The position numbers were made by a program, and so were the translations under genes. From the NCBI GenBank assembly GCA_017533565.1, contig JAFXHU010000010.1:1-52926 (forward strand): 52,926 nt of DNA. Direction: 5' to 3'. Of this stretch, positions 4,523 to 52,926 are shown one piece after another (positions within the stretch are counted from its first letter, which is position 1; every line of letters starts with the position of its first letter). Origin of the DNA: Clostridia bacterium (GTDB lineage: Bacteria; Bacillota; Clostridia; Oscillospirales; CAG-272). The notes below the pieces were generated by a model. It was given only the letters and a program-made list of their open reading frames with translations, did not search any database and was not told the origin of the DNA.

Positions 4523-4560
4523 TATATAATATAAAAACTTATCTCTTGGAGTTTTAACAA

Positions 4561-4654
4561 TACCGTTTGATATCGTGAATATCGTGGAAATACGTGTGAT
4601 ATCGTAGATTTATCGTATGTTTTCGTGCGATATCGTGAACATCGTGAGTATCGT
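4561..4654. repeat. Degenerate TATCGT repeat phased at 9-11 bp
   Basis: Ten copies of TA(T/C)CGT or close variants start at 4561, 4571, 4580, 4591, 4600, 4611, 4621, 4631, 4640 and 4649. The spacing of 9-11 bases is close to one helical turn. The array lies between the end of the membrane-protein gene and the terminator. An 82-codon minus-strand frame runs through it but resembles no protein I know. Confidence 0.75.
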
Positions 4655-48840: not shown

Positions 48841-51645
48841 TTAGGTGTAGTTAAGCACGCCGCCCTGGTCTGCAACGTAAGCTGCCCACTCTGCATCGGT
48901 GTAGTTATAGGTCATAAGACGGAGTCCGCCGTAGCCGTACATAATGTTGTAGTTCTGGGTGTAGTAGTCAGCCTTGTAGGAGAGAAGCGAGCAGATGGTC
49001 GTGCCTGCAAGAGGAATTCTGTAGTAAAGCTTAAGGTAAGCCTCCTCAAGCATAGCGGTAATCTCAAGCTTGGTTTCCATGCTGTCATCTGCAAACTCTG
49101 CAGTACCTATCATAGAGTTGGACCACTCCTGCCAGGTCATGGTATAGTCCTTGCCGTCAACGGTAAGGGTAAGCTCCTCTGTCGTGGGATCCCAGCATCC
49201 AAGCTCGTTTACGCCGTACTGGTCGGGGTCCATATAGGTCTGGAAGTTACGGAAGGGATAGAATGCAGCACCGCCCCATGCGCCGTAGCCGATAGCGAAC
49301 TTGCCCGCGGGAACGTCAGCGTATCTGTCCTCGATGTTACCGATTGCCTCGAAGGTAATCGTGCCAAATCCCGAGCCTGCAAGAGCAGCGTTGATATACT
49401 CGTTAAGCTTTGCAACCTGCTTGTTATCGTCCTCCTGGAGAGCGCCCTTTGCCCAACCGATCTGAATCTTGATGGGCTCGCCTGCGGTGTAAATGCCTGC
49501 CTCAACAAGCTCGTCGCATGCGGTCTTCATAAGAGCCTTTGCCTCGGTGAGGTTGTAGCCTGTAATGGACTTGTAAGCCTCCTCGAGAGTAGCGTAAAGC
49601 TCGCCCTCGCCGTACTTAACGCCATAGAGGTTACAAATAGCCTGCATAGCGGGCTCGGAGCTTCTGTAAGAGGAGTAGGGATCGTTGTAAATATCGTAGT
49701 GGTAAAGCTTATTCATAAGAGAGTAAGCAGGGGTCCAAGCCTGTGTTACGGTAACGTAATCGGCTCTGTTAATCGCAAGGGACATAGCCTTACGGAAGTT
49801 ATCGTTGGTAAGAACAACCGAGTTGGTGTTTACGCCGGAATCGTCAAGCGCAGTAAGTGTATCAAGACCGGTGTTGAAGAAGAAGGACATTGTATAGGTC
49901 TCGTCCTCCTTGTAAAGTCTGTCGGAAAGAGCAAACTTCGAAAGCTCTGCAGCTGTGGGAGAGTATTCCATAAGCTCGCCCTTGAAGAACTTCTGGTTAG
50001 CAACCTGCTCATCCATTACGTCGATAACGATCTTGGTGGTCTGGTACTGCTGGTGCTTCTTGCCGTCAACCTCAAAGTTGGTTTCGGAATAAAGCTCGCC
50101 GTTTTCAAGCTTCGTGAAGCCGTACCAGTTCTCGTTCTGAACGTAAACTACCTGCTTATCGTCCTCAAAGGAGGAGATCTTGTAGGTACCGTAGGACATA
50201 GAGGTTTCCTTGGAGGTGCAGTAATTGGTTACAATAAGACCGCCCTCCTCCTTCTTACCTGCCTCGTAAAGGGGCTCGTAAACAAGCCAAGTATCGGTGC
50301 AGGAGGTAAGGAAGTAGTTGATGTCGATAGCGTTCTGGCAAACGTAGCGAATGGTGTAATCGTCAACCTTGTAGCAGCCGACGCTGTCATACTCTACCTT
50401 TTCGCCGATGCCCGCATAGTAGAATACGAACTCACGGTACAAGGTATCATCTACAACGAGATCACCGTTTTCGTCGGTTATGAAATCGTAATTGTGAGTA
50501 CCTACAGTTCCCTCGGGAGCCTTAACGTAATCCTGAGCCTCTTCGTCCCAAACGTACTGTCCGTCCTCTGCCTCAACAAAGCCCATAGCGTAGATGGACA
50601 TACCGAACGCGCTGAGGTACTGGTCCATAACGTATATAACCTTATCGTAGTTTTCGGCGGTTACGGGGATGTAGCCGTAAACGTTGGTAGCCTCGTCAAG
50701 CTCATTGAGATAGGTAAGACCGAAAAGGGTCTGAATCTTCTCGCCGTTTTCGTCAAGCTTGTAAACGGGTTTTCCTTCCTCGTCGAGAACGACGCCGTAC
50801 TTGTGGGTACCTGTGGTGCCTTCGGGAGCCTCAACGTACTCCTGAGCCTCTTCGTCCCAAACGTGAGTGCCGTTTTCGTCCTCAAGCCAATCCATCTCGT
50901 ACTCATAGGCGTCTCTGATATAGCCGTAATCGTACGCAATCTCCTCAAAGGAGTAGCCTGCAAGAGTCATTCCGGTGGTGGTGATGTTGATGAAGATCTG
51001 CTTGTCGGAAAGATCAAGGCTGTAGTCGGGAGTATCATTCTCTCCGTAGGGAGGAACAACAGGGGCGTAGATAGGAGCCTCGGAATTGTAGAAAGCCAAG
51101 CCGCCCGCAACTGCAGACTCGCCGGAGATGTAGAGGTTAGCTCTGTAGTTTCTCATCTTGGAGTCGAGAAGCTGCTTCATCGAGTAGATGTAAGTATCAG
51201 CGTTGATAGCCACGCCGTTTTCCCACTTTGCATCGGGATTAAGCCTAATCTCGTAAACGTATCCGGAAGTTACATCGGATGCCGCAGTATCCTTTGGAAG
51301 AGAGCAGGCATACTTGGTAAGGTCAGCCTGGTTCTGTGCGGTTACGTCGGTGATGGAGGTAGCCATCTCGTAAACCCACTGGTAAATACCGTTTTCGGTA
51401 TCCTTGGGCGCCAAGGTTACAAAGGGAGAGGTGATAAAGCCGAGAATTGATGAGTCTGCGTTGGTCTCCCATGTGTGAGGATTCCAGTTGTTACCAAGAG
51501 CGGTAGACCAGCTGTTATATGTGTACTCATCCTTTACTACGGCGTCGGGATTCTTCTTCTTACAGGAAGCAAGAATTGCCATAGCGGATACGAGCAAGCA
51601 TACTGTGAGAGCCAAGCAAAGAACTCTTTTAAATGTCTTGTTCAT
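48841..51645 (-). CDS. Oversized lipoprotein solute-binding protein of the oligopeptide-type ABC transporter (family 5)
   Basis: 934 aa against about 530-600 for most OppA/DppA proteins. A lipoprotein signal (MNKTFKRVLCLALTVCLLVSAMAILASC) places the lipid on C28. The SBP_bac_5 fold is recognisable from WENGVAINADTYIYSMKQLLD, the KISSFEDDKQVVYVQNENWYG block and FRKAMSLAINRADY. The extra length lies mainly at about residues 225-400, where a segment is duplicated: VWDEEAQ(E/D)YV(E/K)APEGT(T/V)GTH recurs at about 258 and 360. The protein is very rich in Tyr, Asp and Glu. AAGGAAACAC precedes the ATG. It is first in the operon, driven by the promoter at 51781-51810. Confidence 0.9.
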   Translation of the reverse strand: MNKTFKRVLCLALTVCLLVSAMAILASCKKKNPDAVVKDEYTYNSWSTALGNNWNPHTWETNADSSILGFITSPFVTLAPKDTENGIYQWVYEMATSITDVTAQNQADLTKYACSLPKDTAASDVTSGYVYEIRLNPDAKWENGVAINADTYIYSMKQLLDSKMRNYRANLYISGESAVAGGLAFYNSEAPIYAPVVPPYGENDTPDYSLDLSDKQIFINITTTGMTLAGYSFEEIAYDYGYIRDAYEYEMDWLEDENGTHVWDEEAQEYVEAPEGTTGTHKYGVVLDEEGKPVYKLDENGEKIQTLFGLTYLNELDEATNVYGYIPVTAENYDKVIYVMDQYLSAFGMSIYAMGFVEAEDGQYVWDEEAQDYVKAPEGTVGTHNYDFITDENGDLVVDDTLYREFVFYYAGIGEKVEYDSVGCYKVDDYTIRYVCQNAIDINYFLTSCTDTWLVYEPLYEAGKKEEGGLIVTNYCTSKETSMSYGTYKISSFEDDKQVVYVQNENWYGFTKLENGELYSETNFEVDGKKHQQYQTTKIVIDVMDEQVANQKFFKGELMEYSPTAAELSKFALSDRLYKEDETYTMSFFFNTGLDTLTALDDSGVNTNSVVLTNDNFRKAMSLAINRADYVTVTQAWTPAYSLMNKLYHYDIYNDPYSSYRSSEPAMQAICNLYGVKYGEGELYATLEEAYKSITGYNLTEAKALMKTACDELVEAGIYTAGEPIKIQIGWAKGALQEDDNKQVAKLNEYINAALAGSGFGTITFEAIGNIEDRYADVPAGKFAIGYGAWGGAAFYPFRNFQTYMDPDQYGVNELGCWDPTTEELTLTVDGKDYTMTWQEWSNSMIGTAEFADDSMETKLEITAMLEEAYLKLYYRIPLAGTTICSLLSYKADYYTQNYNIMYGYGGLRLMTYNYTDAEWAAYVADQGGVLNYT

Positions 51646-51810: not shown

Positions 51811-52306
51811 TGGATTTTGATATGACAAATTCTCATACCCTGTGTGGAATTTCTAATTGTATGACGGAATTGACAATATCAGCCAATATGCCGTTTCTTT
51901 TTTGTGCATTTTGCACAATTTTTCTTCTAAAATTTTACTTTGTGCAAATTTAAATTATTTTACTTTTTTTATTATTCGATATTCTTATATCTCCGCTTAA
52001 CCGATAAATAGTATTCCTTTCGCTTGATTTTTTTATTCCCGCTGTGCCATCGGAAGCCCCGTTTTTCACGGTAAAAGCCGTGCCGCTGCCTCGCCCGCGG
52101 AAAAATATAATATGGAAGAAATTTGCAAAAACGGCTTTAAAATCAAGCCCGCCCGCAACATAAGAAGCCCGCATAAATCGCACACTCTCTCACAAAGCGA
52201 GAGGGCTTGTAAAACCGTATCCTTTCCCCCAAAAAGCGCGAGCCGCGTAAGCATAATTCATTATATAAAAACGAAGAAATTGTGTTCAAATATAATCAAT
52301 CCACAA
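51811..52306. other. A+T-rich intergenic DNA with no gene recognised
   Basis: No frame looks coding. A TGTGC-ATTTT-GCACA inverted repeat lies near 51902. TATAAT at 52291-52296, just before the 24-bp array, would place a transcript start near 52303, but there is no convincing -35. Confidence 0.55.
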
Positions 52307-52480
52307 GCATTGCATATCACCAATGCGCAAGCGTTGCATATCACCAATGCGCAAGCATTGCATATCACCAATGCGAAAGCATTGCATATCACCAATGCGA
52401 AAGCATTGCATATCACCAATGCGAAAGCATTGCATATCACCAATGCGAAAGCATTGCATATCACCAATGCGAAAGCATTG
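52307..52480 (+). repeat. 24-bp tandem array of GNRA-tetraloop hairpins
   Basis: Seven units of CAATGC-NNNN-GC(A/G)TTG plus the constant 8-base spacer CATATCAC, exactly 24 bases apart (hairpins start at 52321, 52345, 52369, 52393, 52417, 52441 and 52465). Loops are GCAA in units 1-2 and GAAA in 3-7, all GNRA on the plus strand. The single stem change (GCGTTG in unit 1) keeps pairing as G-T. A decayed half unit (CAATCC-ACAA-GCATTG) precedes it. Confidence 0.93.
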
Positions 52481-52502
52481 CATACATATACATCCCGACA
52501 GG

Positions 52503-52592
52503 CTGATGATATGCTCGATTTTGGCGAGATGCTCTCGACAAAATCGGATGATATGCGCCGAAAGGCGATGATATGCCAAGTCTCTGACTTGG
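52503..52592 (+). repeat. Cluster of unlike hairpins separated by GATGATATG
   Basis: GATGATATG-type spacers alternate with hairpins. CGATTTTG...CAAAATCG (52516-52546) has an inner CGAGA-TGC-TCTCG. CGCC-GAAA-GGCG is at 52556-52567 and CCAAGTC-TCT-GACTTGG at 52576-52592. The design matches the 24-bp array, whose spacer CATATCAC resembles the reverse complement of GATGATATG. Confidence 0.8.
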
Positions 52593-52594
52593 AT

Positions 52595-52630
52595 AAAAAA
52601 ATACTGCAGAAGCTCTGCAGTATTTTTTTG
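52595..52630. terminator. Intrinsic terminator closing the hairpin region
   Basis: ATACTGCAGA and TCTGCAGTAT pair around AGC, with an A run before and seven T after, so it can act on both strands. Confidence 0.88.
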
Positions 52631-52926
52631 GAGCGTGATTAAAGAGTTCTCTGTCGCTGACGCTCCCGCGAACTCGTGACAACTCCGCTTCGCTTCGTTG
52701 TCAGGGGCTACGCACTAAAGTGCAAGCCCCGTAGCGACAAAATAAAAAGCGGACGTCACGAGGACGTCCTCTCTCCCTCTTGCTCACCATTCCTTTCGGA
52801 GCGTGATTAAAGAGTTCTCTGTCGCTGACGCTCCCGCGAACTCGTGACAACTCCGCTTCGCTTCGTTGTCAGGGGCTACGCACTAAAGTGCAAGCCCCGT
52901 AGCGACAAAATAAAAAGCGGATGTCA
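52630..52926. repeat. 168-bp tandem repeat, second copy cut by the window end
   Basis: 52630-52758 and 52798-52926 are 129 bases identical except C at 52754 versus T at 52922. The period is 168 bases. Each copy holds GGGGCT...AGCCCC around a GCAC-TAAA-GTGC core and GACAAC...GTTGTC. No open frame is convincing. Confidence 0.92.

Follow-up and report, generated by a model that had tools for sequence, protein, structure and literature searches.

What kind of element produces a tandem series of nearly identical mini-hairpins close to the end of a clostridial contig? The window, by which we mean the entire analyzed stretch of 52,926 nucleotides, carries such an array near its right end. A sequence-only reading had described seven 24-bp units, each a stem closed by a GNRA loop and joined to the next by an invariant spacer, and had proposed a plus-strand structured RNA, a protein-binding platform or a mobile repeat family. 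The description of the units is accurate: the TRF output for the whole window consists of two rows, one of which is this array (52305-52484; period 24, 7.5 copies, 98% matches, score 339). The seven units begin at 52321, 52345, 52369, 52393, 52417, 52441, and 52465, with GAAA loops in five and GCAA loops in two, and the single stem change, GCGTTG for GCATTG in the first unit, leaves a G-T pair. The spacer CATATCAC shows no variation among its copies at 52313, 52337, 52361, 52385, 52409, 52433, and 52457.

The array is the expanded left half of a larger element (Table 1). To its right, the linker recurs in inverted form (ATGATATG) at 52506, 52548, and 52568, and the element as a whole spans 52297-52629 (~330 bp), comprising two inverted hairpin sets with their 8-nt linker and a terminator-like palindrome at the end. 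The region 52290-52600 folds better than 100 of 100 shuffles both as plus-strand DNA (z -5.9) and as RNA of either strand (z -5.5 for plus, -3.6 for minus). Because the units are 98% identical to each other, the array alone provides almost no evidence of selection on structure; that evidence comes from its relatives.

Table 1. Anatomy of the element and its neighborhood in the window.
Feature	Position	Strand	Basis or remark
Nearest large ORF on the far side, 934 aa, SBP_bac_5 solute-binding protein	48841..51645	-	Reads away from the element
Possible outward promoter at the far end, TTGAAC-18 nt-TATAAT	52260..52289	-	Read by eye
Decayed eighth (outermost) hairpin CAATCCACAAGCATTG, far end of the element	52297..52312		Sequence; position matches the outermost hairpin of relatives
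Expanded left half (reported array): seven CATATCAC linkers, each with a CAATGC-GNAA-GCATTG-like hairpin	52313..52480		TRF, linker positions
Central segment between the inverted halves	52481..52505		Sequence; unlike in most parsed relatives, not complementary to the terminal hairpin
Right half: three inverted ATGATATG linkers, hairpins at 52514-52547 (nested) and 52556-52567	52506..52575		Sequence, relatives
Terminal hairpin CCAAGTC-TCT-GACTTGG, then ATAAAAAAA	52576..52592		Sequence, relatives
A-stem-T terminator-like palindrome; in relatives it separates the element from a tRNA gene	52595..52629		Sequence, relatives

A 12-nt linker word locates the family in 36 of 59 genomes, with 224 matches against 9 for the reversed control, and within the genus in 23 of 36 genomes, including the window's own (G000; 1.71 Mb, 77% complete). 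Twelve array clusters, among them that of the window, were read in G000; five of them adjoin a gene for tRNA or tmRNA, and several fall at contig ends. Another genome, G063, carries arrays at no fewer than ten places. A scan of named genomes for the linker pattern yielded at least 119 stretches. The 80 of these that were listed carry the titles Clostridia or Oscillospiraceae, with many sampled from the gut of ruminants or deer; the exceptions are three Christensenella and one each of Ruminococcus, Ruminiclostridium, and "Bacillales". The loci were selected by the linker pattern, and many belong to draft metagenome bins. A phage or plasmid origin was rejected: blastn found no match in phage or plasmid collections, and eight viral contigs with the linker pattern have no hairpin between the linkers (stems 0-2). 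Similar hairpin arrays with a third linker variant, TGATATC/TGATATT, occur at L128, L290, and L298.

Read from its far end, a typical relative begins with ATC, followed by three hairpins, each with a TATATCAT linker, and the central segment. The near part continues as hairpin-ATGAKATA-hairpin-ATGATATA-hairpin-ATGATATR, a terminal hairpin (for example, CCAAGCC-TGC-GGCTTGG), ATAAAAAAA, the terminator, and the tRNA gene. The fixed 8-nt linker motif is mostly RTGATATR. In the 62 parsed elements, defined as those with an intact terminal hairpin and both halves, the number of left linkers is three in 38 and never exceeds four, and the center shares a complementary 7-mer with the terminal hairpin in 46. 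Among distinct center/terminal combinations, 13 of 28 match, where 200 shuffles give a mean of 3.5 and at most 8; this pairing is a feature of the family that is absent in the window copy. The linkers do not covary, and we rejected the long helix with four-way junctions, formed in the folds by left linkers pairing with right linkers: across 143 linker pairs, a mean of 7.503 of 8 positions pair against 7.540 after shuffling, and 491 of 500 shuffles are at least as good.

Between the linkers, pairing is maintained while the sequence changes. Perfect stems of at least 4 bp are present in 502 of 609 inter-linker segments, against 6 after one shuffle, and 95 of these stems are distinct. In a covariation set drawn from segments of 14-17 nt, namely 73 distinct 15-nt segments chosen without requiring a stem, six pairs retain 69-71 Watson-Crick cells, while the shuffled means for the four most variable pairs are 20, 23, 36, and 54. 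The earlier proposal that the hairpins are under structural maintenance is thereby borne out by the covarying stems of the relatives.

Set against these relatives, the seven-unit array in the window is probably a recent, microsatellite-like expansion without a function of its own, a reading compatible with every other one considered here. The high identity between its units, the lower linker numbers of the relatives, a central segment that does not complement the terminal hairpin, and the finding of no tRNA gene anywhere in the window all agree with it. Against it stands that pairing persists in all seven stems and that the linker does not vary, with too few changes for this to weigh much. Lacking a tRNA and the center-terminal complementarity, and with another repeat abutting it, the window copy is best described as recently expanded and perhaps inactive. 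Its TATAAT begins 31 nt from the edge, compared with the 20 nt favored in relatives. The abutting repeat, an unrelated 168-bp tandem repeat (GGAGCGTGATTAAAGAG...) at 52630-52926, runs from the terminator-like palindrome off the contig end and occupies the spot where relatives often have a tRNA. Elsewhere in the window, at 4559-4646, a degenerate ~30-bp repeat rich in ATATCGTG lies near another terminator-like palindrome.

Where the family lies behind tRNA genes, it does so in a single orientation. We considered 84 arrays with at least four linkers, in both orientations and with 250 bp of flank, of which seven had no clear terminal end (n = 77). A tRNA gene lies within 220 bp of the terminal end in 49 of the 77 and is transcribed toward the array in all 49; no array has a tRNA only at the opposite end, and 28 have none. 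TATAAT with at most one mismatch begins exactly 20 nt outside the array at 25 of 187 edges (ends of either kind), where 2.8 would be expected, so that the array edge can supply the -35 box. Of the ORFs listed, 15 of 61 beyond the far edge begin 44-50 nt out behind a TATAAT-like box. The interval from tRNA-Gln to rpmB (the latter named by eye) contains an array in G000; in G034 it holds a PF05635 gene and no array. In G063 and G094, a motif resembling TTGTTGCYATTTTGAGCTGTAAACACA stands just before terminator-like sequences, with an array behind it (L316, L317, L321, L325, and L329) or without one (L318, L320, L322, L323, L328, and L330).

Several loci carry modules and genes in series. At L276, four modules, one of them without its distal half, alternate with four same-strand genes, each module standing behind a near-identical terminator. 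At L277, a tRNA is followed by two modules alternating with two genes, and L153 has the order tRNA, module, gene, module, gene. A pre-terminator motif common to L276 and L277 was considered as a cassette end; it also precedes terminators without arrays. Homologous recombination between repeats could be the source of such series, and L129 looks like a plain tandem duplication.

The first genes behind the modules are dominated by a single family. Among 42 first genes, chosen from the 61 listed ORFs by dropping array-overlapping or repeated ones, 11 match PF05635, while every other Pfam family matches at most one. One PF05635 gene type recurs together with the module behind tRNAs of six anticodons in 8 of 11 loci, at distances of 254-326 bp from the tRNA, which is Arg(acg) in three loci and Leu(gag), Thr(cgt), Thr(ggt), Ala(ggc), or Val(gac) in one each; the other three loci, including the broken L138, have no tRNA in view. 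In several loci the gene starts 45-50 nt from the array edge, and the sequence past its stop codon varies by locus. Of 40 genomes from the genus, 36 have PF05635 genes; 14 named control genomes have none, and G000 gave no match. As the system's own enzyme, PF05635 was rejected: some congeners have PF05635 and no linker word, and G000 has arrays and no PF05635, so that the family is not needed in every genome.

The far edges of the arrays also bear traces of insertion. They match the tail of their own tRNA at a score of at least 30 in 4 of 45 cases, against a control fraction of 0.0009. Three of the four matches are copies of tRNA 3' ends. At L143, an intact tRNA-Arg is followed by a terminator, the array, a 21-nt direct-repeat copy (the tRNA 3' end plus the next bases), and a second terminator; L152 (27 nt, one mismatch) and L116 (21 nt) carry their copies before a second module. 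The fourth match, at L080, covers 22 nt in the middle part of its tRNA-Asn and lies 104 nt out. Integrative elements use tRNA 3' ends as attachment sites, and the three copies, which repeat the 3' end of a tRNA left intact at the opposite side, resemble their arrangement. Unlike integrative elements, however, the units here measure ~0.3-1.5 kb, and no integrase was found in those read. A further likeness is a prophage-like integrase and an S24-type repressor gene beside an array in G000. There, contig C2 (L342, 18-3280) has the only tyrosine recombinase match of the genome (Phage_integrase) next to an array and terminator, with an S24/HTH repressor-type gene nearby and a stretch resembling a tRNA T-arm by eye (ARAGORN: no tRNA); the locus looks like an integrative element at a tRNA.

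One pair of genomes, obtained in the search for an empty site of L116, differs at a module-bearing tRNA. The flanks of G067 and G282 are 88% identical over 1.8 and 2.2 kb. Behind the same tRNA-Arg(ccg), G067 has two modules, whereas in G282 it is followed by another terminator, then a PF05635 gene overlapped by a 100-aa gene, and last a truncated array. The extra piece in G282, located between tRNA and array, differs in its terminator and brings no array along, and on that side the existing array is cut short; because the G282 contigs break inside the array, we infer the join there. The two genomes thus show a gene-content difference at one module-bearing tRNA, in which either state may be the older, and the module itself was not caught moving. 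Short target-site duplications are rare among 68 pre-module flanks. The 12-nt flank recurs downstream in 5 of the 68; six flank repeats that were examined are parts of longer repeated units or the edge of the next module, and a seventh, at L124 (found by 11-mer), is a chance match judging by its context. A search for empty sites of L092 and L153 met relatives too distant, in which mainly the tRNA and pieces of the array matched. The loci and genomes examined yielded neither an excision product nor a circle, and they showed no recombinase that could be held responsible. Tyrosine recombinases (PF00589) are present in 38 of 40 congeners and once in G000, and none was classified as IntI.

Taken together, these observations lead us to favor, at slightly under an even chance, the reading of the element as a non-coding module, acting as folded DNA, for the insertion or recombination of mobile cassettes anchored at tRNAs, the window array being its expanded left half. 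The module, with its two inverted sets of short hairpins, often lies between a tRNA or tmRNA terminator and the promoter of a small gene, and modules would move together with their genes, as cassettes, into tRNA 3' ends. The hairpins would work as folded single-stranded or cruciform DNA and might be recognized by shape, in analogy to the attC sites of integrons, with RTGATATR providing a sequence-specific contact and a recombinase acting in trans. The window copy, having no tRNA neighbor, would have grown by unit duplication. Observed are the architecture, the stem covariation, the position and orientation relative to tRNAs, the module-gene series, the tRNA 3'-end copies, the recurrence of PF05635, and the G067/G282 difference. 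This reading is weakest in that the enzyme is missing and that module and gene were in no case caught moving together.

The main rival, which we regard as somewhat unlikely, is a MITE-, REP-, or BIME-like palindromic repeat, non-autonomous and collecting behind terminators, above all those of tRNAs, with the genes as bystanders borrowing its -35 box. The many copies per genome and the patchy distribution speak for such a repeat, as do the arrays without a tRNA, the presence/absence difference behind tRNA-Gln between G000 and G034, and the lack of a recombinase linked to the arrays. It accounts less well for the recurrence of one PF05635 type with its module behind different tRNAs, at a similar distance from the array edge in several loci, for the tandem module-gene series, and for the tRNA 3'-end copies. 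REP stems are conserved in sequence, whereas here the stems vary and the linker is fixed. REP genomes do not all need a Y1 transposase, and PF01797, the family of the TnpA-REP enzyme, has no match in the G000 assembly (77% complete), a result that also counts against this alternative. The likeness to REP/BIME and TnpA-REP systems, as far as the accessible part of PMC8266576 describes them, lies in the many chromosomal copies and in clustered inverted hairpins between genes. The mobile repeat family named by the sequence-only reading has found support: the relatives form a repeat family with signs of mobility, namely the tRNA-end copies and the G067/G282 difference.

We consider it improbable that the element is a structured RNA family, in which a read-through transcript of the tRNA would bind a protein through hairpins and linkers, as Rfam supposes for the related family Gut-1. 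The good RNA folds and the covarying stems would suit such an RNA, while the hairpins vary in number and sequence, a terminator-like palindrome separates tRNA from array, and an outward promoter box often lies opposite. The kind of pairing also argues against it. In hairpins with at least 60% Watson-Crick pairs, leaving out the innermost pair, G-U pairs are nearly absent, occupying 11 of 1,627 positions (0.7%) in distinct array hairpins, compared with 225 of 3,163 (7.1%) in the tRNA stems at the same loci (pairs as drawn by ARAGORN). Terminator stems beside the arrays, which are RNA hairpins by expectation, are G-U-poor as well (12 of 645), and this counts against the G-U argument for DNA. G-U nevertheless makes up 12 of 23 non-Watson-Crick cells in terminators, versus 11 of 81 in arrays: terminators have few G-U pairs and tolerate them relative to other mismatches, and arrays do not.

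The loops point in the same direction. On the strand opposite the linker, 177 of 283 triloops are GNA (5 on the linker strand), 267 of the 283 being closed by a C-G pair, and 79 of 167 tetraloops are GNNA, of which 36 are GNRA; when each distinct hairpin is counted once, GNA accounts for 46 of 118 and GNNA for 39 of 83, 22 of the 39 being GNRA. Such GNA and GNNA loops form very stable hairpins in DNA. The scarcity of G-U pairs and these loops together favor DNA over RNA structure; G-U scarcity would also be expected with hairpins on both strands or with palindrome repair, so that DNA is favored, not proved. The earlier interpretation is therefore only partly supported. Its restriction to GNRA loops does not extend to the relatives, and its plus-strand functional RNA is not supported, given the near absence of G-U pairs and the inverted halves, which leave neither strand privileged. 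It had looked to homologues for non-GNRA loops and for stems mutating without compensation; the former occur and the latter were not found.

The same reading had named no known element of this design with certainty. A related family exists in Rfam, Gut-1 (RF01706), to which the window array does not belong: its score is 22.7 bits on the minus strand (52381-52466), short of the cut-off of 50, and four G000 elements, including that of the window, reach 22.4-26.9 bits. Gut-1, which the accessible part of its description lists from the human gut only (Weinberg et al, 2010; PMC2864571), scores above the cut-off in 67 of the order's 197 sampled genomes; 14 control genomes gave no such match. Its locus features were counted in the best 30 loci. 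Nineteen of these follow a tRNA or tmRNA of the same orientation at 29-42 nt, and none follows a reversed one; this position on the tRNA strand favors the RNA reading. A T run precedes 26, a terminal-to-center inverted repeat of at least 8 bp is present in 24 (shuffled mean 0.9, maximum 3), and 21 extend into a second, inverted half not covered by the Rfam model. This second half and the position behind the tRNA terminator indicate that Gut-1 models half of a sister element. The two types share hairpins with changing stems, a fixed linker (GUGAAAU in Gut-1), a frequent place behind tRNA or tmRNA terminators, which the present analysis adds to the Rfam definition, and complementarity between terminus and center. 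They differ in the linker, which is TGATAT in the window (GUGAUAU on the matching strand) and TGAAAT in Gut-1, and in the direction of the two halves, which point the opposite way; the TGATAT type thus has its halves in opposite order to Gut-1 on the tRNA strand, a further argument against the RNA reading. Given the other linker and the other half direction, the window element works like Gut-1 and is not a member of it. A place behind a tRNA or tmRNA is taken by 49 of 77 arrays of the TGATAT type and by 19 of the best 30 Gut-1 loci, and the window copy has the palindrome and no tRNA.

A transcription or topology element, such as a second-line terminator or a cruciform insulator standing between a strongly transcribed tRNA unit and the gene after it, would fit the position between a terminator and, often, an outward promoter box as well as loops very stable in DNA, and is highly improbable because it leaves the tRNA 3'-end copies, the gene series, and the recurring PF05635 gene unexplained.

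The favored reading of a cassette module can be extended to a larger, tentative proposal, which we hold to be possible rather than probable: uncultivated gut Clostridia would harbor an integron-like cassette system without known integron parts, in which chains of single genes, many with their own promoter, stand at tRNA 3' ends, separated by folded-DNA recombination modules of inverted hairpin arrays that conserve only shape and an 8-nt linker. Gut-1 would be half of the module of a sister system, and PF05635 the most frequent gene, perhaps aiding insertion at structural RNA genes. Integron cassettes are treated in PMC11641012 and PMC8352920. They likewise consist of serial single genes with a non-coding palindromic module kept more by shape than by sequence, a feature seen here in L276, L277, and L153 and not in the window. 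In contrast to the single attC, however, the modules here have about seven hairpins in two inverted sets, their genes often seem to have their own promoter, they are anchored at tRNA 3' ends, and no IntI was identified. For PF05635, the nearest parallel is the intervening sequences of 23S rRNA, where, according to the accessible part of PMC4990558, the same four-helix-bundle family (PF05635/S23) lies beside DNA inserted at a structural RNA gene; here, by comparison, it is the frequent first gene behind a tRNA-flanking module, with variable sequence after it.

If the proposal holds, gut Clostridia would possess a widespread means of gathering small genes at tRNA loci and reshuffling them, and a family that Rfam treats as a non-coding RNA would change its meaning. 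No description of this element was found in the literature on repeats, cassettes, tRNA neighborhoods, and the four-helix protein, nor a match under the name "Gut-1 RNA", most subscription journals being outside our reach. Both the cassette and the Gut-1 claims can be tested with existing genomes, given how many of the order carry Gut-1, and the 250 distinct DNA hairpins form a natural set for asking how palindromes remain perfect under sequence change.

The PF05635 genes of G282 (L354, 2345-2607) and G034 (L216, ~1000-1190) share another non-coding region behind a tRNA, with T-rich tracts and TAGCTTTTCTYCCGTTGGTCGAAAAGC, which is perhaps a second kind of tRNA-flanking insertion.
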